In this document: in pieces, positions 43,282 to 47,919 of the stretch
Layout: each line of letters begins with the position of its first letter
Position numbering within the stretch: position 1 is the stretch's first letter
Origin: Tritonibacter scottomollicae
Lineage (GTDB): Bacteria > Pseudomonadota > Alphaproteobacteria > Rhodobacterales > Rhodobacteraceae
NCBI RefSeq assembly: GCF_003003215.1
Contig: NZ_PVUF01000019.1
Coordinates: forward strand, 1-64,000
DNA: 64,000 nt
Direction: 5' to 3'
The notes under the pieces: model-generated
What the model was told of the DNA's origin: nothing
The model's database searches: none
The model's input: the letters and a program-made list of their open reading frames with translations, nothing else
Position numbers and translations under genes: made by a program

Positions 43282-43845
43282 TCAGGTGGTTGGCTGCGGG
43301 CGGATGAACCCATTGATCGGGTAGACGCTGCCATAGGCGCCGGGATTGCTTTCTAGGCGGACGCGGGACCAGTCATTGTTCTTCGAGACGTCGATCACTG
43401 TCATCCCGAGCGAGACTTTGTTGCGGCGCCAATTGGCGTGATCCACGCGCAACATGCGATCATCCACAAGCTCTGAAACCACGGCCACATGGCCCAACGG
43501 CATGGACGGCGTGGCACTGAACGCCATGACCGCGCCGATGGTCGGGGTATTACCGACCTCAAACTCACCCTGGGCCTGACGCCACCATGTCCGGGCATTG
43601 CCGCGAATTTCGACGCCGGAGAGGTTGCGCGCAAACGGTACGCACCACACGCGCGCGCCACGGGATTGCAGGCTCTCAGCCTCCCGCATGGCAAAGGCAA
43701 GGCGGTTCGGATCAATTGCGCCTTCATCACGTCCAGGAGCCTCGCCGCAGGCCGTTAGGCCCAGCGTTGCAATGAGAAGAAGTCCACTGACAAGCGGGTT
43801 CGGGCGGAAGATACGGATGAGGTTCTGCACGGTACTCTCTGGCAT
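43282..43845 (-). CDS. CHAP-domain lipoprotein (probable peptidoglycan amidase)
   Basis: A 187-residue protein with a lipobox LTAC (lipidated Cys33) and a CHAP cysteine peptidase domain. The catalytic Cys68 is in VWCVPFAR, His119 in PLGHVAVVSE, and an acidic/amide residue follows in RVDHANWRR (Asp135, Asn138). It should cleave peptidoglycan or glutathionylspermidine-type amides at the cell surface. It stands alone, leftward, between the enolase gene and the stressosome cluster. Confidence 0.83.
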   Translation of the reverse strand: MPESTVQNLIRIFRPNPLVSGLLLIATLGLTACGEAPGRDEGAIDPNRLAFAMREAESLQSRGARVWCVPFARNLSGVEIRGNARTWWRQAQGEFEVGNTPTIGAVMAFSATPSMPLGHVAVVSELVDDRMLRVDHANWRRNKVSLGMTVIDVSKNNDWSRVRLESNPGAYGSVYPINGFIRPQPTT

Positions 43846-44051: not shown

Positions 44052-44435
44052 CTATTGTTGAGCAACCAGCCTGTCGATTACGGAAATATCGTCTGTCGTC
44101 AGAGGTTTGCTGAAATAGCCGCGCACCGGGGCAAAGGTCTCGGCACGACTGCGGTCTTGCGGATCCATAGAGGTGGTCACCATGATCACGATCTGGTTCT
44201 CGAGCTCCGTTTTCGCCGCCTCCAGAAACTCAAATCCATCCATTCGCGGCATGTTGATGTCGAGTAGAATTACATCCACCGGCCGTCGCGTCGGGGATTT
44301 CAGGTATTCCAGCGCCTCGGTTGCGTACTGAAACGGCAATAGATCGATTTTGGCGTTGGTTTTTTTCAATATCCGTCGATACGCCAGTTGATCAAAGCGG
44401 TCGTCATCAACCGTCATCACCCGATTGAGTGTCAT
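44052..44435 (-). CDS. single-domain response regulator of the stressosome operon
   Basis: A 127-residue receiver domain with no output domain. The acidic pocket is Asp10-Asp12, the phosphoacceptor Asp59 in VILLDINMPRMDG, the switch Thr in IVMVTTSMD and Lys in GYFSKPLT. The ATG at 44435 has AAAGGGAG upstream and lies inside the 3' end of the histidine kinase gene (29-bp overlap). It should receive phosphate from that kinase and pass the signal by protein contact. It is the last gene of the six-gene leftward stressosome operon. Confidence 0.87.
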   Translation of the reverse strand: MTLNRVMTVDDDRFDQLAYRRILKKTNAKIDLLPFQYATEALEYLKSPTRRPVDVILLDINMPRMDGFEFLEAAKTELENQIVIMVTTSMDPQDRSRAETFAPVRGYFSKPLTTDDISVIDRLVAQQ

Positions 44436-45612
44436 TGTCGCGCTCCCTTTCATTTATCCATAGTCTCACGATAAAGGAGCTTCCTCCCTGTTCGTTCGAG
44501 ACAACTTGAATATCTCCGGCGTGGTATCCGGCGATGCGTTGGCAAAGCGTTAGTCCAATTCCGGAGCCAGAGTATTCGTCGTAGGTGTGTAGCCGTTGAA
44601 ACAGCGAGAAGATCCTTGTCCGATAGGCTTCGGGTATGCCGATTCCGGTGTCGCTGACTGTAATCTCAGCCGCGCAATTCCGAGGCTTCGGCGCCGCGGA
44701 GACGGCGATGCGGCAGGGGCGTCCCGGGTCGCGGAACTTTATCGCGTTGGAGAGTAGATTCTGGAGCAGGCTGCGCAGTTGTGACGGCATGCCCCGCACA
44801 TCCGGAAGCGGGGAGATGTCGATTTCCGCTTTTCCATCCGTGATTTCCTGGCGCAAGTCGTCGCGAACGTCGCGGCACAGCTTGTCGAGCGACACAGTCT
44901 CGAATTCCGCCTCCTGACCCACGAGCCTGGCATATTGCAAGATGCCAGTGATCATCCGGGACATGCGCGAAGCGGTCGCCTGGGCGGCATCAATGAGTTC
45001 GAGGCATTCGGAATCCAGGTGCTCCTGGTGATCAACTGAAATGATGTCCAGTAACATCGCGATGGTATTGATCGGAGATTTCAGATCGTGGGAGATGGCG
45101 TAGGTGAACTGCGCCTGTTCCTGATTGGCTTGCTGCAATTGGCTGTTGAGGCGCTCTGACCTCTCCAATCCCGCTTGGAGTTCGCGGGTACGTGCCTTTA
45201 CCTTCTGATCCAAACTGTCGCGCTGCCGAGCCAGTTCATAGGTCACATCGCGCAGCTCCTGTTCCGCGCGCTTGCGTTCCAGTACCTCTGCTGTCAGTTG
45301 GGCGACGCTTTCGCCATAGCCACGCAGCGCCATGTCGTAGACCGAAATAGCCTCGAGATAGAACTCCTCTGTCCGTTTGGTTTCAGGCGAGGGGGACGGC
45401 GAACCGCTGCACAGCATCTGCGCTGCTTGGAAATGGAGTTCGCCCAATTGTCCGATCGAAATCGAGCTCTGCAAAGCCTGTCGGGCGCAGTCATAGGCCC
45501 GCGACAGGTTCTCCTCATTCCCATCGCGTACATAAGTTGCGAGGGCTGTGGCATAGCTTTGAGCAAAGGACCGGGGCGCGTGGGCGCGGCTGTTGCTGTC
45601 GTGGTCAATCAT
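44407..45612 (-). CDS. histidine kinase with RsbU-like N-terminal domain, stressosome output
   Basis: A 401-residue soluble kinase with no transmembrane helix. Residues about 14-110 resemble the RsbT-binding N-terminal domain of the phosphatase RsbU: paired helices around YATALATYVRDGNEENLSRAY and a second helix with LEAISVYDMALRGYGESVAQL. A coiled coil (110-165) leads to a HisKA domain with phosphoacceptor His175 in AISHDLKSP and a HATPase domain (LQNLLSNAIKF, DTGIGIPE, GSGIGLTLCQ). The start overlaps the RsbX gene. In Bacillus the RsbT kinase released from the stressosome activates RsbU; here it may activate this kinase instead. The domain match is by eye. Confidence 0.8.
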   Translation of the reverse strand: MIDHDSNSRAHAPRSFAQSYATALATYVRDGNEENLSRAYDCARQALQSSISIGQLGELHFQAAQMLCSGSPSPSPETKRTEEFYLEAISVYDMALRGYGESVAQLTAEVLERKRAEQELRDVTYELARQRDSLDQKVKARTRELQAGLERSERLNSQLQQANQEQAQFTYAISHDLKSPINTIAMLLDIISVDHQEHLDSECLELIDAAQATASRMSRMITGILQYARLVGQEAEFETVSLDKLCRDVRDDLRQEITDGKAEIDISPLPDVRGMPSQLRSLLQNLLSNAIKFRDPGRPCRIAVSAAPKPRNCAAEITVSDTGIGIPEAYRTRIFSLFQRLHTYDEYSGSGIGLTLCQRIAGYHAGDIQVVSNEQGGSSFIVRLWINERERDNDTQSGDDG

Positions 45613-46226
45613 GGCGCGGCCACCACCCTGAGGCCAAGAACCAGCCTGTCATCAGTGGGGCGCCCGTGATGCCTGAGGATGCCCGAGGTGATATCAGAGA
45701 TTGGATGGGTGGCGTCGAGATCAGAGCGGTAGTTGCGACTGATGCCATCTGTGGTCAGGATGATCACATCATCGACCCGCAGTGGAGCGCTGGTCAGGCG
45801 AATGCCATCGTAGATAAGTCCGAGCGTTCCGCTTTTCTGAATCAAGCTTCCGGAAATCCTGCCGTTGCGGACGAGGACGCCATCGATGTCTCCGACTGCG
45901 CTCCAGCTCAACATCATCTGTTCGAGATCTATTTGGGCAGCGGCCAGCGCCACGCCCCGGATACCACGCAGGGCTGCATGCACCTGATCGAACGCGACCT
46001 CCATATCATATCCACCCGCCTCCCGAAGATGCGCCAATGTCGTGTCGGCAGCAGCATTGGCTTCGGCTCCGCTGCCCATTCCATCGACGACGTAAATCCG
46101 AATATGCGCCCCGTCACGCAACAGCATGTAGCCATCTCCGCTGCTGTCAGCGAACTTGGAGCTCTCTGACATGCTCCATGACAGTGCGTGGCGCGCGCTA
46201 GGTGGGGCAATGAGGTGTTGGGTCAT
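45609..46226 (-). CDS. rsbX: RsbX-like PP2C serine/threonine phosphatase
   Basis: A 205-residue PP2C/SpoIIE-type phosphatase. The metal-binding Asp residues are Asp31 in SSGDGY, Asp48 in VVDGMGSG and Asp160 in LTTDGIS. It is small and has no sensor domain, like RsbX, which dephosphorylates RsbR and RsbS to reset the stressosome. ATG 46226 overlaps the RsbT stop as ATGA; an ATG at 46238 is possible. It sits fourth in the order rsbR-rsbS-rsbT-rsbX. Confidence 0.84.
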   Translation of the reverse strand: MTQHLIAPPSARHALSWSMSESSKFADSSGDGYMLLRDGAHIRIYVVDGMGSGAEANAAADTTLAHLREAGGYDMEVAFDQVHAALRGIRGVALAAAQIDLEQMMLSWSAVGDIDGVLVRNGRISGSLIQKSGTLGLIYDGIRLTSAPLRVDDVIILTTDGISRNYRSDLDATHPISDITSGILRHHGRPTDDRLVLGLRVVAAP

Positions 46227-46642
46227 CGCAGCTGCCATTTCACGGCGATGATCGTAACCCCTTCGCCGGGGGGGGAGCGAATGTCGAACTCGTCCATAAT
46301 TCTGCGAGTGCCGGGTAGGCCCAGACCAAGGCTGTTGCCGGTGGAAAACCCGTCACACAGCGCGCGCTCCAGATCTGCGATTCCCGGGCCATGGTCGCGG
46401 GCGATGATACGGATCCCCTGCCTGTCTCCCTGCTGCAGGGTGGTCAGTTCAATTTCGCCATGATCGGCGTAAACGACGATGTTGCGTGCCAGTTCTGAAA
46501 TCGCGGTTGCGACAAGCGCCTGATCCGGGCGGCTGAACCCGAGGTCTTCGGCCAATGCGCGCCCCATCTGGCGGGCGGAGATGACGTCGGCATCGCGCCG
46601 AATGGCCTGAACCATGGCATCGAGCGGGGCCGGAACCTGCAT
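46223..46642 (-). CDS. rsbT: RsbT-like serine/threonine switch kinase
   Basis: A 139-residue GHKL-fold kinase. The N box is ELARNIVVYAD (Asn54), the G1 box DHGPGIAD (Asp83), and the G2 region GLGLPGTRRIMDEF. It should phosphorylate RsbS and RsbR in the stressosome and, once released, bind the downstream effector. It follows rsbS by 1 bp and overlaps rsbX. Length and motifs match RsbT rather than the anti-sigma kinase RsbW. Confidence 0.88.
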   Translation of the reverse strand: MQVPAPLDAMVQAIRRDADVISARQMGRALAEDLGFSRPDQALVATAISELARNIVVYADHGEIELTTLQQGDRQGIRIIARDHGPGIADLERALCDGFSTGNSLGLGLPGTRRIMDEFDIRSPPGEGVTIIAVKWQLR

Positions 46643-46643
46643 G

Positions 46644-46997
46644 TCAGGTTTCCCCGATCAGAGCGAGGCCATGGTCGAGATCAAGCGCAGTCGGGATGTC
46701 CTTGAGTGTGAGGCCAAGCAATACCATGGATATTGCCACGTCCGGCTGAATGCCGACGATAATCATTTTGGCGCCGCGCAGCTTTACCGAGTGGGCGATT
46801 TCGATCAGGGTCTTGGTGCCAAAGCTGTCGAGAATGCCGATGGCGCTGACGTCGACGATCACCGCATTGGCGCGGTAGCGGATCACATCCTCGAGTATGC
46901 GGCTCTGCAGGTTCAGAATATCGCTGTCGCAGAGGTCTTCCTGGATCGAGGCAATCAGCGCAGAGCCTTGCCTCAGGATCGGAACCGTCACAGTCAT
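46644..46997 (-). CDS. rsbS: RsbS-like STAS-domain stressosome scaffold
   Basis: A 117-residue single STAS domain. The conserved phosphorylatable Ser58 lies in DVSAIGILDSFGTKTL, at the position of Ser59 of Bacillus RsbS. It would form the stressosome core with RsbR and hold RsbT until phosphorylated. It is 4 bp after rsbR and 1 bp before rsbT. Confidence 0.88.
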   Translation of the reverse strand: MTVTVPILRQGSALIASIQEDLCDSDILNLQSRILEDVIRYRANAVIVDVSAIGILDSFGTKTLIEIAHSVKLRGAKMIIVGIQPDVAISMVLLGLTLKDIPTALDLDHGLALIGET

Positions 46998-47001
46998 CGG
47001 T

Positions 47002-47919
47002 TCACTCCCCCAGCAGGTGTTCTGCCAGTTCTATGCCGCGTTGCAGGTCGCCGGCGGTGCTGAGGGCTTCTGCGGTGACTCCAACCTTGACCAGAGATTG
47101 TGCCACCTCTGCGGAGAGGCCGGTGAGAACGGGTTGCGCCCCCATCAAGCGCGCGGCGGCCATTGTCTGGATCAGATGGTTGGCGACGGCGCTGTCGACA
47201 GCTGCGACGCCGGTAATATCCAGCACCACGGCGCGTGCGCGATGCTCTTGGATGCCTTCCAGCAATTGTATCGTCAGAGCGCGGGCGCGATAGCTGTCCA
47301 ATGTGCCAACCACGGGGATGAGCAGCAATCCGGGGCGCAATTGCAGAACCGGGGTGGGCAGCTCGCTTAGCTCCCTTTCGCGTGCCTTGATGGCCTCTTC
47401 TCGTGTGTCGGCATAAGTTTCCAGCGCCAAAGCCATGTCGAAATGGGCAATCTTGAATAGCGACAGAACCATGCTGAACGCCTTGGCAGGATCATCCTCC
47501 ATGCGATCAAGGACGACATTCGCGAGCTTGTTCAGGTAGAACGCATAGGCGCCGATATAAAGGGTCGGTGTCACGCCGGTGCGTTCATGAATGCTCCCGA
47601 TCCGGCGGCGATCCGCGATATAGCTGCTGTCCAGGTCGGCGTTGATCAGCTCTCGAAAGTAGCGCATCTGGCCTTTCTTGACCTGAGCGATATGCGCATC
47701 GTCGCGGAAATGCCGTGAAGCCGTCTCATCCGCCAGCAAATGTGTATAGAACGCCTCGATGATGCGCTCTCCCACATCGTCTGCGATGTCGCCCAGTTCC
47801 GAGGTTAGGGCGCGATCATGATCCGACAGATCGAACCATCGCATCGCGTCCACAAGGTCCTGATCGAACTCTGGCTTGCCCTCGGAATCGGAGAGCGACG
47901 ATGAAATTACTTCACGCAC
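47002..47919 (-). CDS. rsbR: RsbR-like stressosome sensor with N-terminal globin-type domain
   Basis: A protein of about 305 residues. The N-terminal half is a sensor globin (AMRWFDLSDHDRALTSEL, then DRRRIGSIHERTGVTPTLYIGAYAFYL), with the probable haem-proximal His111 in RIGSIHERTGV, as in globin-coupled sensors and Vibrio RsbR. The C-terminal half (from about 190) is a STAS domain; the two phospho-sites of Bacillus RsbR, both Thr there, are Ser243 in VDSAVANH and Ser275 in EVAQSLV. It should sense oxygen or another gas. The start is uncertain: GTG 47919 has AAGG before it, and a GTG at 47964 is in frame. Confidence 0.87.
   Translation of the reverse strand: MREVISSSLSDSEGKPEFDQDLVDAMRWFDLSDHDRALTSELGDIADDVGERIIEAFYTHLLADETASRHFRDDAHIAQVKKGQMRYFRELINADLDSSYIADRRRIGSIHERTGVTPTLYIGAYAFYLNKLANVVLDRMEDDPAKAFSMVLSLFKIAHFDMALALETYADTREEAIKARERELSELPTPVLQLRPGLLLIPVVGTLDSYRARALTIQLLEGIQEHRARAVVLDITGVAAVDSAVANHLIQTMAAARLMGAQPVLTGLSAEVAQSLVKVGVTAEALSTAGDLQRGIELAEHLLGE

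Follow-up and report, generated by a model that had tools for sequence, protein, structure and literature searches.

The window analysed here is a 64,000-nucleotide stretch of the Tritonibacter scottomollicae genome (contig NZ_PVUF01000019.1, positions 1 to 64,000), in which positions 44052–47919 hold an operon of six minus-strand genes in the order globin rsbR, rsbS, rsbT, rsbX, a histidine kinase (HK) and a response regulator (RR) (Table 1). All six open reading frames lie where a model's earlier reading of the letters alone (hereafter the sequence-only reading) had placed them, and they are as closely coupled as it had described. Gaps of 4 bp and 1 bp separate rsbR from rsbS and rsbS from rsbT, and overlaps of 16 bp and 4 bp join rsbT to rsbX and rsbX to the HK gene; the last junction, between HK and RR, is an overlap of 29 bp with the RR start at 44435 or of 47 bp with the upstream ATG at 44453. 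Judged by open reading frames and Pfam, RsbS, RsbT and RsbX follow RsbR in the order of the rsbRSTX stressosome module, and Pfam domains together with key residues bear out the earlier description of a complete module with a globin RsbR, coupled to a two-component system.

The functional roles of the key residues in all six proteins are those generally known for their families. RsbR combines a Protoglobin domain (5.7e-36 in Pfam) with a C-terminal STAS domain, and its GTG start at 47919 agrees with the starts of its orthologues. Its best solved relative is 7o0i (E = 8.3e-41), which we take to be the Vibrio vulnificus stressosome. The proximal heme histidine (H111) and the distal tyrosine (Y58) align with the His and Tyr of 7o0i and of relatives, and by these retained ligand residues the protein is predicted to be of the heme-binding type. 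Candidate phosphosites are S243, which aligns with a Thr of the Listeria protein, and T189, which aligns with an Ala in Listeria and which we presume to be the Bacillus T171 position, the phosphosite names being likewise our assumption. RsbS has a STAS domain in Pfam and a candidate phosphoserine, S58 within DSF, aligned with a Ser of Listeria RsbS. RsbX is a SpoIIE-type PP2C in Pfam and keeps D35, D52, D164 and D197, presumably the metal site, as do all 10 aligned RsbX proteins. RsbT matches HATPase_c and HATPase_c_2, with N54, D83, R24, R28 and D97 kept; aligned through Listeria RsbT, it has two arginines and an aspartate at what we assume to be the positions of Bacillus RsbT R19, R23 and D92. 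These three residues are named as RsbU–RsbT contacts in the text of PMC12143880.

The feature that links the stressosome to the two-component system lies at the N terminus of the HK, where residues 18–95 form an RsbU_N domain (Pfam, 35.2 bits against a cut-off of 25.5, E = 1.4e-8). It is followed by a long helical linker (about residues 96–165), a HisKA domain with H175 (166–230) and a HATPase_c domain (276–385). A six-frame search of the whole genome (4.68 Mb) found RsbU_N in a single copy, on this kinase. Supporting the assignment, a profile of three orthologous HK N termini drew four distinct Protein Data Bank (PDB) sequences at E ≤ 10, every one an RsbU and the best at 0.0012. According to the text of PMC12143880, RsbU_N is the domain through which Bacillus RsbU dimerises and receives RsbT, RsbU is activated by RsbT binding and linker ordering, and E24, Y28, I74, I78 and R91 are among the contacts with RsbT; the E24 position is kept as Glu in the HK, and the I74 position is a similar Leu. 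No further sensor domain exceeded the Pfam cut-off in the HK, and hydrophobicity stayed too low for a membrane helix throughout (19-residue means of at most 0.85). The kinase core is nearest to the kinase domain of the bacteriophytochrome RpBphP2 (8f71, 35% identity), a likeness confined to that core, with the photosensory PAS-GAF-PHY core absent from the Pfam matches.

The RR matches Response_reg in Pfam, has a complete acceptor site (D10, D11, D59, T88 and K110) and carries no output domain. Its start at 44435 is the one that aligns with orthologues, and ten Rhodobacterales RRs align as a bare receiver with nothing C-terminal to it, some open reading frames (L028, L074) being longer upstream by choice of start. 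The best match of the RR profile is 3ilh, an unnamed RR, and its matches also include RcpB, RcpA, Rcp1 and a bacteriophytochrome–RR chimera. The likeness of the kinase core to RpBphP2, together with the phytochrome RRs among the RR profile's matches, gives the HK the appearance of a phytochrome-type kinase that takes its input through an RsbT docking domain. On domain content, the docking half of RsbU is retained and its phosphatase half exchanged for an HK.

Beyond the gene order, domains and key residues seen in the window, the coupling is conserved across genomes. We compared 12 Rhodobacterales rsbRSTX loci, namely the window, G774, G775, G776, G189, G021 (the same as L027/L017), L022–L026 and L028. 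An HK with RsbU_N is present in 11 of them, above the Pfam cut-off in 10 of these 11 and below it in L028 (18.2 bits); HisKA was matched in 10 of the 11 (the exception is L024), and 10 of the 12 loci have an RR, none being found in L023 or L024. In a wider sample of the class, two loci (L053 and L055) show rsbRSTX followed by an RsbU_N-HK, and in L052 rsbT adjoins an RsbU_N-HK, with no RsbR or RsbS matches in the 12 kb fetched. The domain is infrequent overall, with 3 positive genomes in an order-wide sample of 390 and 5 in a class-wide sample of 385 (the window genome is counted in both samples, and G774–G776 lie outside the order sample), and an RsbR match of at least 50% identity occurs in 5 of 18 genomes of the genus. 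Since distribution is patchy and genomic locations differ, horizontal exchange of the operon is suggested; its G+C content (0.55–0.61) falls inside the range of the flanking DNA, with no island signature.

Outside the order, 11 loci came from a scan of genome contigs that was seeded with Rhodobacterales RsbS and are therefore not an unbiased sample. The protein encoded after rsbX carries RsbU_N in all seven loci covered (L029, L030, L032, L035, L037, L038 and L039; L031, L033, L034 and L036 were left out of this count), six exceeding the cut-off and L038 falling just under it at 24.7 bits. Its partner domains in these seven are GAF-HD, HisKA_3 kinases (three, one with PAS), HisKA kinases (two) and GAF-PP2C. 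This spread over effectors agrees with the idea of an exchangeable toolkit in PMC12143880, as far as the text of that paper goes; in the text of Heinz et al. 2022 (PMC9237108), RsbU_N was not detected in the majority of downstream proteins. None of the 133 records from a plasmid search with the HK reached 80% coverage of the query, and among the 30 plasmid HK matches listed the kinase part alone was matched (residue 75 onward).

A second way of joining RsbT to a kinase emerged from a plasmid search with RsbS, which gave a match in 58 Phaeobacter plasmid records and from which three plasmid loci were examined for fusions. In all three stressosomes, rsbR-rsbS-rsbT are followed first by an RsbT-PP2C fusion and next by an HK whose N terminus is an RsbT domain (Table 1); the PP2C part of the RsbX-like fusion was identified by Pfam in L040 and by record annotation in L041 and L042. 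As a control for the RsbT profile, Listeria RsbW scored 15.6 bits; the profile listed neither the RbaW-like protein of the window's genome nor two HKs, that of the window and another one. None of the three fusion HKs was listed with the RsbU_N-domain profile. Since they score with the one profile and not the other, RsbU_N docking and RsbT fusion look like alternative wirings, and the fusions offer independent evidence that RsbT and an HK can share one pathway.

Together, these observations probably describe a stressosome-gated phosphorelay, a reading we hold with good but not full confidence. RsbT, usually the switch of a sigma-factor pathway, most likely plugs into the HK's docking domain. 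Since the HK carries RsbU_N, which receives RsbT in Bacillus, the signal is likely to pass from RsbT to HK to RR. The sequence-only reading had called the output route unclear; it had missed the docking domain, which makes the route less unclear than claimed. The binding of RsbT to the HK, the direction of its effect, the oxygen signal, the phosphotransfer to the partner RR and all steps after the RR we infer as follows. RsbT would be held by a STAS core built of RsbS and the heme-globin sensor RsbR; upon loss of O2 from the RsbR heme, RsbT would phosphorylate this core and be freed. Free RsbT would dock on RsbU_N and stiffen the helix running from it into the HisKA dimerisation helix, changing autophosphorylation at H175. 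Phosphate would then pass from H175 to D59 of the RR, which may act on its target by protein–protein contact, and RsbX would reset the system by dephosphorylating RsbR and RsbS. The oxygen step is modelled on V. brasiliensis, where, by the text of PMC4976288, RsbT shows activity alongside RsbR in the unliganded Fe(II) state and a basal level alongside the Fe(II)-O2 state. Phosphotransfer is supported by the position of the RR gene, adjacent to and overlapping the HK gene, and by its complete acceptor site.

Structure prediction is consistent with this route in one respect. In a full-length HK model built from nine sequences (predicted local distance difference test score, pLDDT, 77.5; predicted template modelling score, pTM, 0.49), a single continuous helix (residues 77–194) comprises the fourth helix of the RsbU_N bundle, the linker and the HisKA helix, as would fit linker-mediated control. 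Several observations weigh against the proposed route. Domain placement in that model is not established because the pTM is low. A model of the N-terminal domain (pLDDT 89) has RsbU as its top Foldseek match, but at an E value of 0.31 that does not discriminate, and with VIA-align RsbU reaches Z scores of 7.6–7.9, under other helical chains at 9.0–9.3. In place of RsbU Y28 the window HK has Ser, and its relatives vary among Ser, Leu, Thr, Ile, Val and Gly; the I78 position is Ser, and R91 is without a clear counterpart. On the other partner, the RsbT N24 contact position is Ala, and the candidate phosphosite T189 of RsbR is replaced by Val in the RsbRs of G189 and G021. Two Rhodobacterales loci appear to be decaying: L024 (Poseidonocella sp. 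HB161398) has an HK without HisKA and no RR found, and L023 (Mangrovicoccus ximenensis) has a truncated RsbX and no HK or RR found, although that locus contains 14 N and an assembly error is possible. Finally, in L054, one of four other alphaproteobacterial RsbU_N genes, the RsbU_N protein runs off the contig, and no stressosome gene turned up in the 7.2 kb searched by phmmer with the proteins of the window.

Other relations between stressosome and kinase deserve consideration. RsbT might phosphorylate the HK on Ser/Thr rather than dock on it allosterically, as Heinz et al. suggest for Vibrio, and V. brasiliensis RsbT is indeed an active kinase (text of PMC4976288); such phosphorylation was proposed, however, where RsbU_N was not found (text of PMC9237108), whereas the window HK has this domain, whose action in Bacillus is through binding, with ordering of the linker (text of PMC12143880), and we consider phosphorylation unlikely. 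A yet smaller chance attaches to the HK and RR working as a two-component system of their own, linked to the stressosome by nothing more than a common transcript. A shared operon is no proof of a shared pathway, and the HK core is nearest to that of a bacteriophytochrome kinase (8f71), a kind with its own sensor. Here, by contrast, no further sensor domain of the HK exceeds the Pfam cut-off, and the N terminus of the kinase belongs to the RsbT-binding domain family; the linkage also persists across distant phyla and at varying positions in the genome, and other stressosome operons carry an RsbT domain fused to an HK.

A further alternative would lead through a partner switch encoded elsewhere. 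The sequence-only reading had found no RsbU, RsbV, RsbW or sigma-B; this stands for the operon, and a genome search for the SigB-family sigma factor (TIGR02980) gave four matches, none over the cut-off. The genome-wide search for rsbU, rsbV and rsbW, which that reading had proposed as a check, did reveal an RsbV-RsbW pair (114 and 146 aa; contig C2, L020) and a receiver-PP2C protein (425 aa; L019), in which Pfam finds a receiver domain and no RsbU_N. An RsbU phosphatase (RsbU_N plus PP2C) was not found, the genome's one RsbU_N match sitting on the HK. By domains, the pair and the receiver-PP2C are counterparts of RbaV, RbaW and RbaY, the partner switch of R. capsulatus (text of PMC3999984). 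RsbT is not expected to drive the receiver-PP2C directly, since that protein has a receiver domain and no RsbU_N. The HK or RR might instead phosphorylate it and so feed an RbaY-RbaV-RbaW type switch acting on a sigma factor, and the components are present; moreover, the HK-core profile, which recovered three HKs in two control loci, found no kinase among 28 and 33 open reading frames in the 12 kb around RsbV-RsbW and the receiver-PP2C. In the text of PMC3999984 the kinase upstream of R. capsulatus RbaY is described as unknown, and B. cereus RsbK-RsbY provides a precedent. Yet the operon carries its own RR, and a window-type HK cannot be the usual Rba kinase because RsbU_N is rare (3 of 390 order genomes) and Rba homologues are reported from other Rhodobacterales (text of PMC3999984). 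We judge this path improbable, about as much so as phosphorylation of the HK by RsbT, and continue to favour RsbT docking on the HK with transfer to the partner RR. The genome holds three SpoIIE matches, RsbX, the receiver-PP2C and a PP2C beside type VI-like genes; the last adjoins a Ser/Thr kinase and large genes on contig C11 (Table 1), presumably, by their look, a set for post-translational control of type VI secretion.

The sensor also varies. Among the 12 Rhodobacterales operon RsbRs, nine have the proximal His and three (G189, G021 and L028, Leisingera aquaemixtae) have Asn, so some Rhodobacterales stressosomes have, by their residues, given up the heme ligand. On a tree of RsbR, RsbS and RsbT from nine of the 12 loci plus three outgroup rows, the step from His to Asn is one change and the Asn clade has support of 100/100. 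Both ligand types occur within the window's genus (window versus G189) and within Leisingera (L025 versus L028). In the text of Jia et al. (PMC4976288), all RsbRs of the V. brasiliensis clade retain the heme-ligand residues; the Asn clade differs in its ligand. A second RsbR of G189, at C3:1030725, is a heme-type orphan; a hybrid histidine kinase precedes it by about 320 bp, and the 12 kb fetched gave no match to RsbS or RsbT. A search for a second RsbR in G021 and in the genome of L028 found none. We tentatively suggest, as a possibility that falls somewhat short of probable, that RsbT is a general-purpose diffusible activator reaching HKs by docking (RsbU_N-HK) or by fusion (RsbT-HK on the Phaeobacter, Sphingomonas and Paraburkholderia plasmids) and that, with some Rhodobacterales stressosomes lacking the heme ligand and one such genome having an orphan heme-type RsbR, oxygen sensing and kinase wiring follow evolutionary courses separate from that of the conserved core.

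The arrangement itself is already in print, and this genome is a well-preserved further example. The sequence-only reading had singled out an alphaproteobacterial version as worth detailed study; such a version is not new, since the text of Heinz et al. 2022 (PMC9237108) describes, for Ruegeria, globin RSTX modules that have HisKA/REC proteins downstream. That text also reports RsbU_N-like N termini in some alpha-, beta- and gammaproteobacteria, and the eLife 2025 paper (PMC12143880) cites it and models an RsbU_N-HK. The Ruegeria type shares the gene order, the globin RsbR, RsbX right after RsbT, and the HK and receiver downstream; by text and legend there is no essential difference from the window, although the Ruegeria HK itself is not stated there to have RsbU_N. 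The likeness to Vibrio drawn by the sequence-only reading holds for the heme-globin RsbR, the rsbR-S-T core and the signalling proteins downstream in V. vulnificus and V. brasiliensis (texts of PMC9237108 and PMC4976288). It stops at the downstream proteins of V. vulnificus, which are linked to c-di-GMP and in which no RsbU_N was detected, whereas the window has an RsbU_N-HK and an RR without output domain; no positive RsbT–kinase interaction is given for V. vulnificus in the text of PMC9237108. Compared with RsbRST-RsbU-RsbV-RsbW-SigB of Bacillus subtilis, the window has homologous RsbR, RsbS and RsbT and a downstream RsbU_N protein, but RsbU_N is on an HK rather than a PP2C, no SigB-family match exceeds the cut-off and RsbX lies inside the module. 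Bacteriophytochrome HKs with Rcp1-type single-domain RRs have a similar HK core and RR, with a photosensory domain in place of the window's RsbU_N. In the texts of PMC9237108, PMC12143880, PMC4976288, PMC10014275 and PMC3999984, with figures and subscription papers outside this scope, RsbT-HK fusions and heme-less Rhodobacterales RsbRs go unmentioned, which does not prove absence. We found no published description of the heme-less clade, the orphan heme-type RsbR or the plasmid RsbT-HK fusions, with the same proviso.

The operon provides a compact, fully linked case from marine Rhodobacterales for how a stressosome reaches a two-component system. Its RsbU_N domain gives a direct prediction, that RsbT alters HK autophosphorylation through the docking domain. 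Natural variants serve as ready-made controls, with heme and heme-less RsbRs in one genus and with kinases that dock RsbT or are fused to it.

Table 1 Positions of the operon genes and of related features in the window and in other loci
Feature	Sequence	Position	Strand	Description
rsbR	window	47002..47919	-	305 aa from GTG 47919; protoglobin sensor + STAS; reading frame open to 47964
rsbS	window	46644..46997	-	117 aa; single STAS protein
rsbT	window	46223..46642	-	139 aa; GHKL serine kinase / switch protein
rsbX	window	45609..46238	-	209 aa; minimal PP2C feedback phosphatase
RsbU_N-HK	window	44407..45612	-	401 aa; RsbU_N + HisKA + HATPase_c
RsbU_N domain of HK	window	45328..45561	-	predicted RsbT docking site; sole genome copy found, E 4.8e-9
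Single-domain RR	window	44052..44435	-	127 aa from ATG 44435; reading frame starts 44453
RsbT-HK fusion	L040	7743-8894		Phaeobacter porticola plasmid; RsbT profile 67 bits
RsbT-HK fusion	L041	7791-9662		Sphingomonas aliaeris plasmid; RsbT profile 122 bits
RsbT-HK fusion	L042	7761-9431		Paraburkholderia sp. D15 plasmid; RsbT profile 87 bits
Asn-type RsbR globin	L018	11683-12579
Asn-type RsbR globin	L027	944-1840
Asn-type RsbR globin	L028	7094-7987
Orphan heme-type RsbR	L075	4666-5592		G189; same as C3:1030665-1031591
HK without HisKA	L024	9402-10520		Poseidonocella sp. HB161398
Truncated RsbX	L023	8761 onward		Mangrovicoccus ximenensis
Gene after RR	L022	10958-11704		Mangrovicoccus sp. HB161399
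PP2C and adjoining genes	L021	2904-8952		window genome, contig C11
CHAP-domain lipoprotein gene	window	43282-43845	-	downstream of operon

Some features lie beside the operon or its relatives. In L022 an extra gene with an HK-type HATPase domain stands directly after the RR. An Rfam search matched no RNA elements, and searches for sigma-70-type promoters (0 matches against 2.3 expected) and terminator-like sites (2 against 3.5 expected) were uninformative. The gene psd (48311) was rejected as a functional link, psd and the operon being on separate contigs in G776. A CHAP-domain lipoprotein gene follows the operon on the same strand. Its presence in 9 of the 18 genus genomes, with or without the operon, led us to reject it too as a member or target of the operon. 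It stands directly after the RR in three genomes (window, G774 and G776), lies far from the operon in G189 and G775, and is also found in four genomes without an RsbR match of at least 50% identity (G770, G772, G180 and G315).

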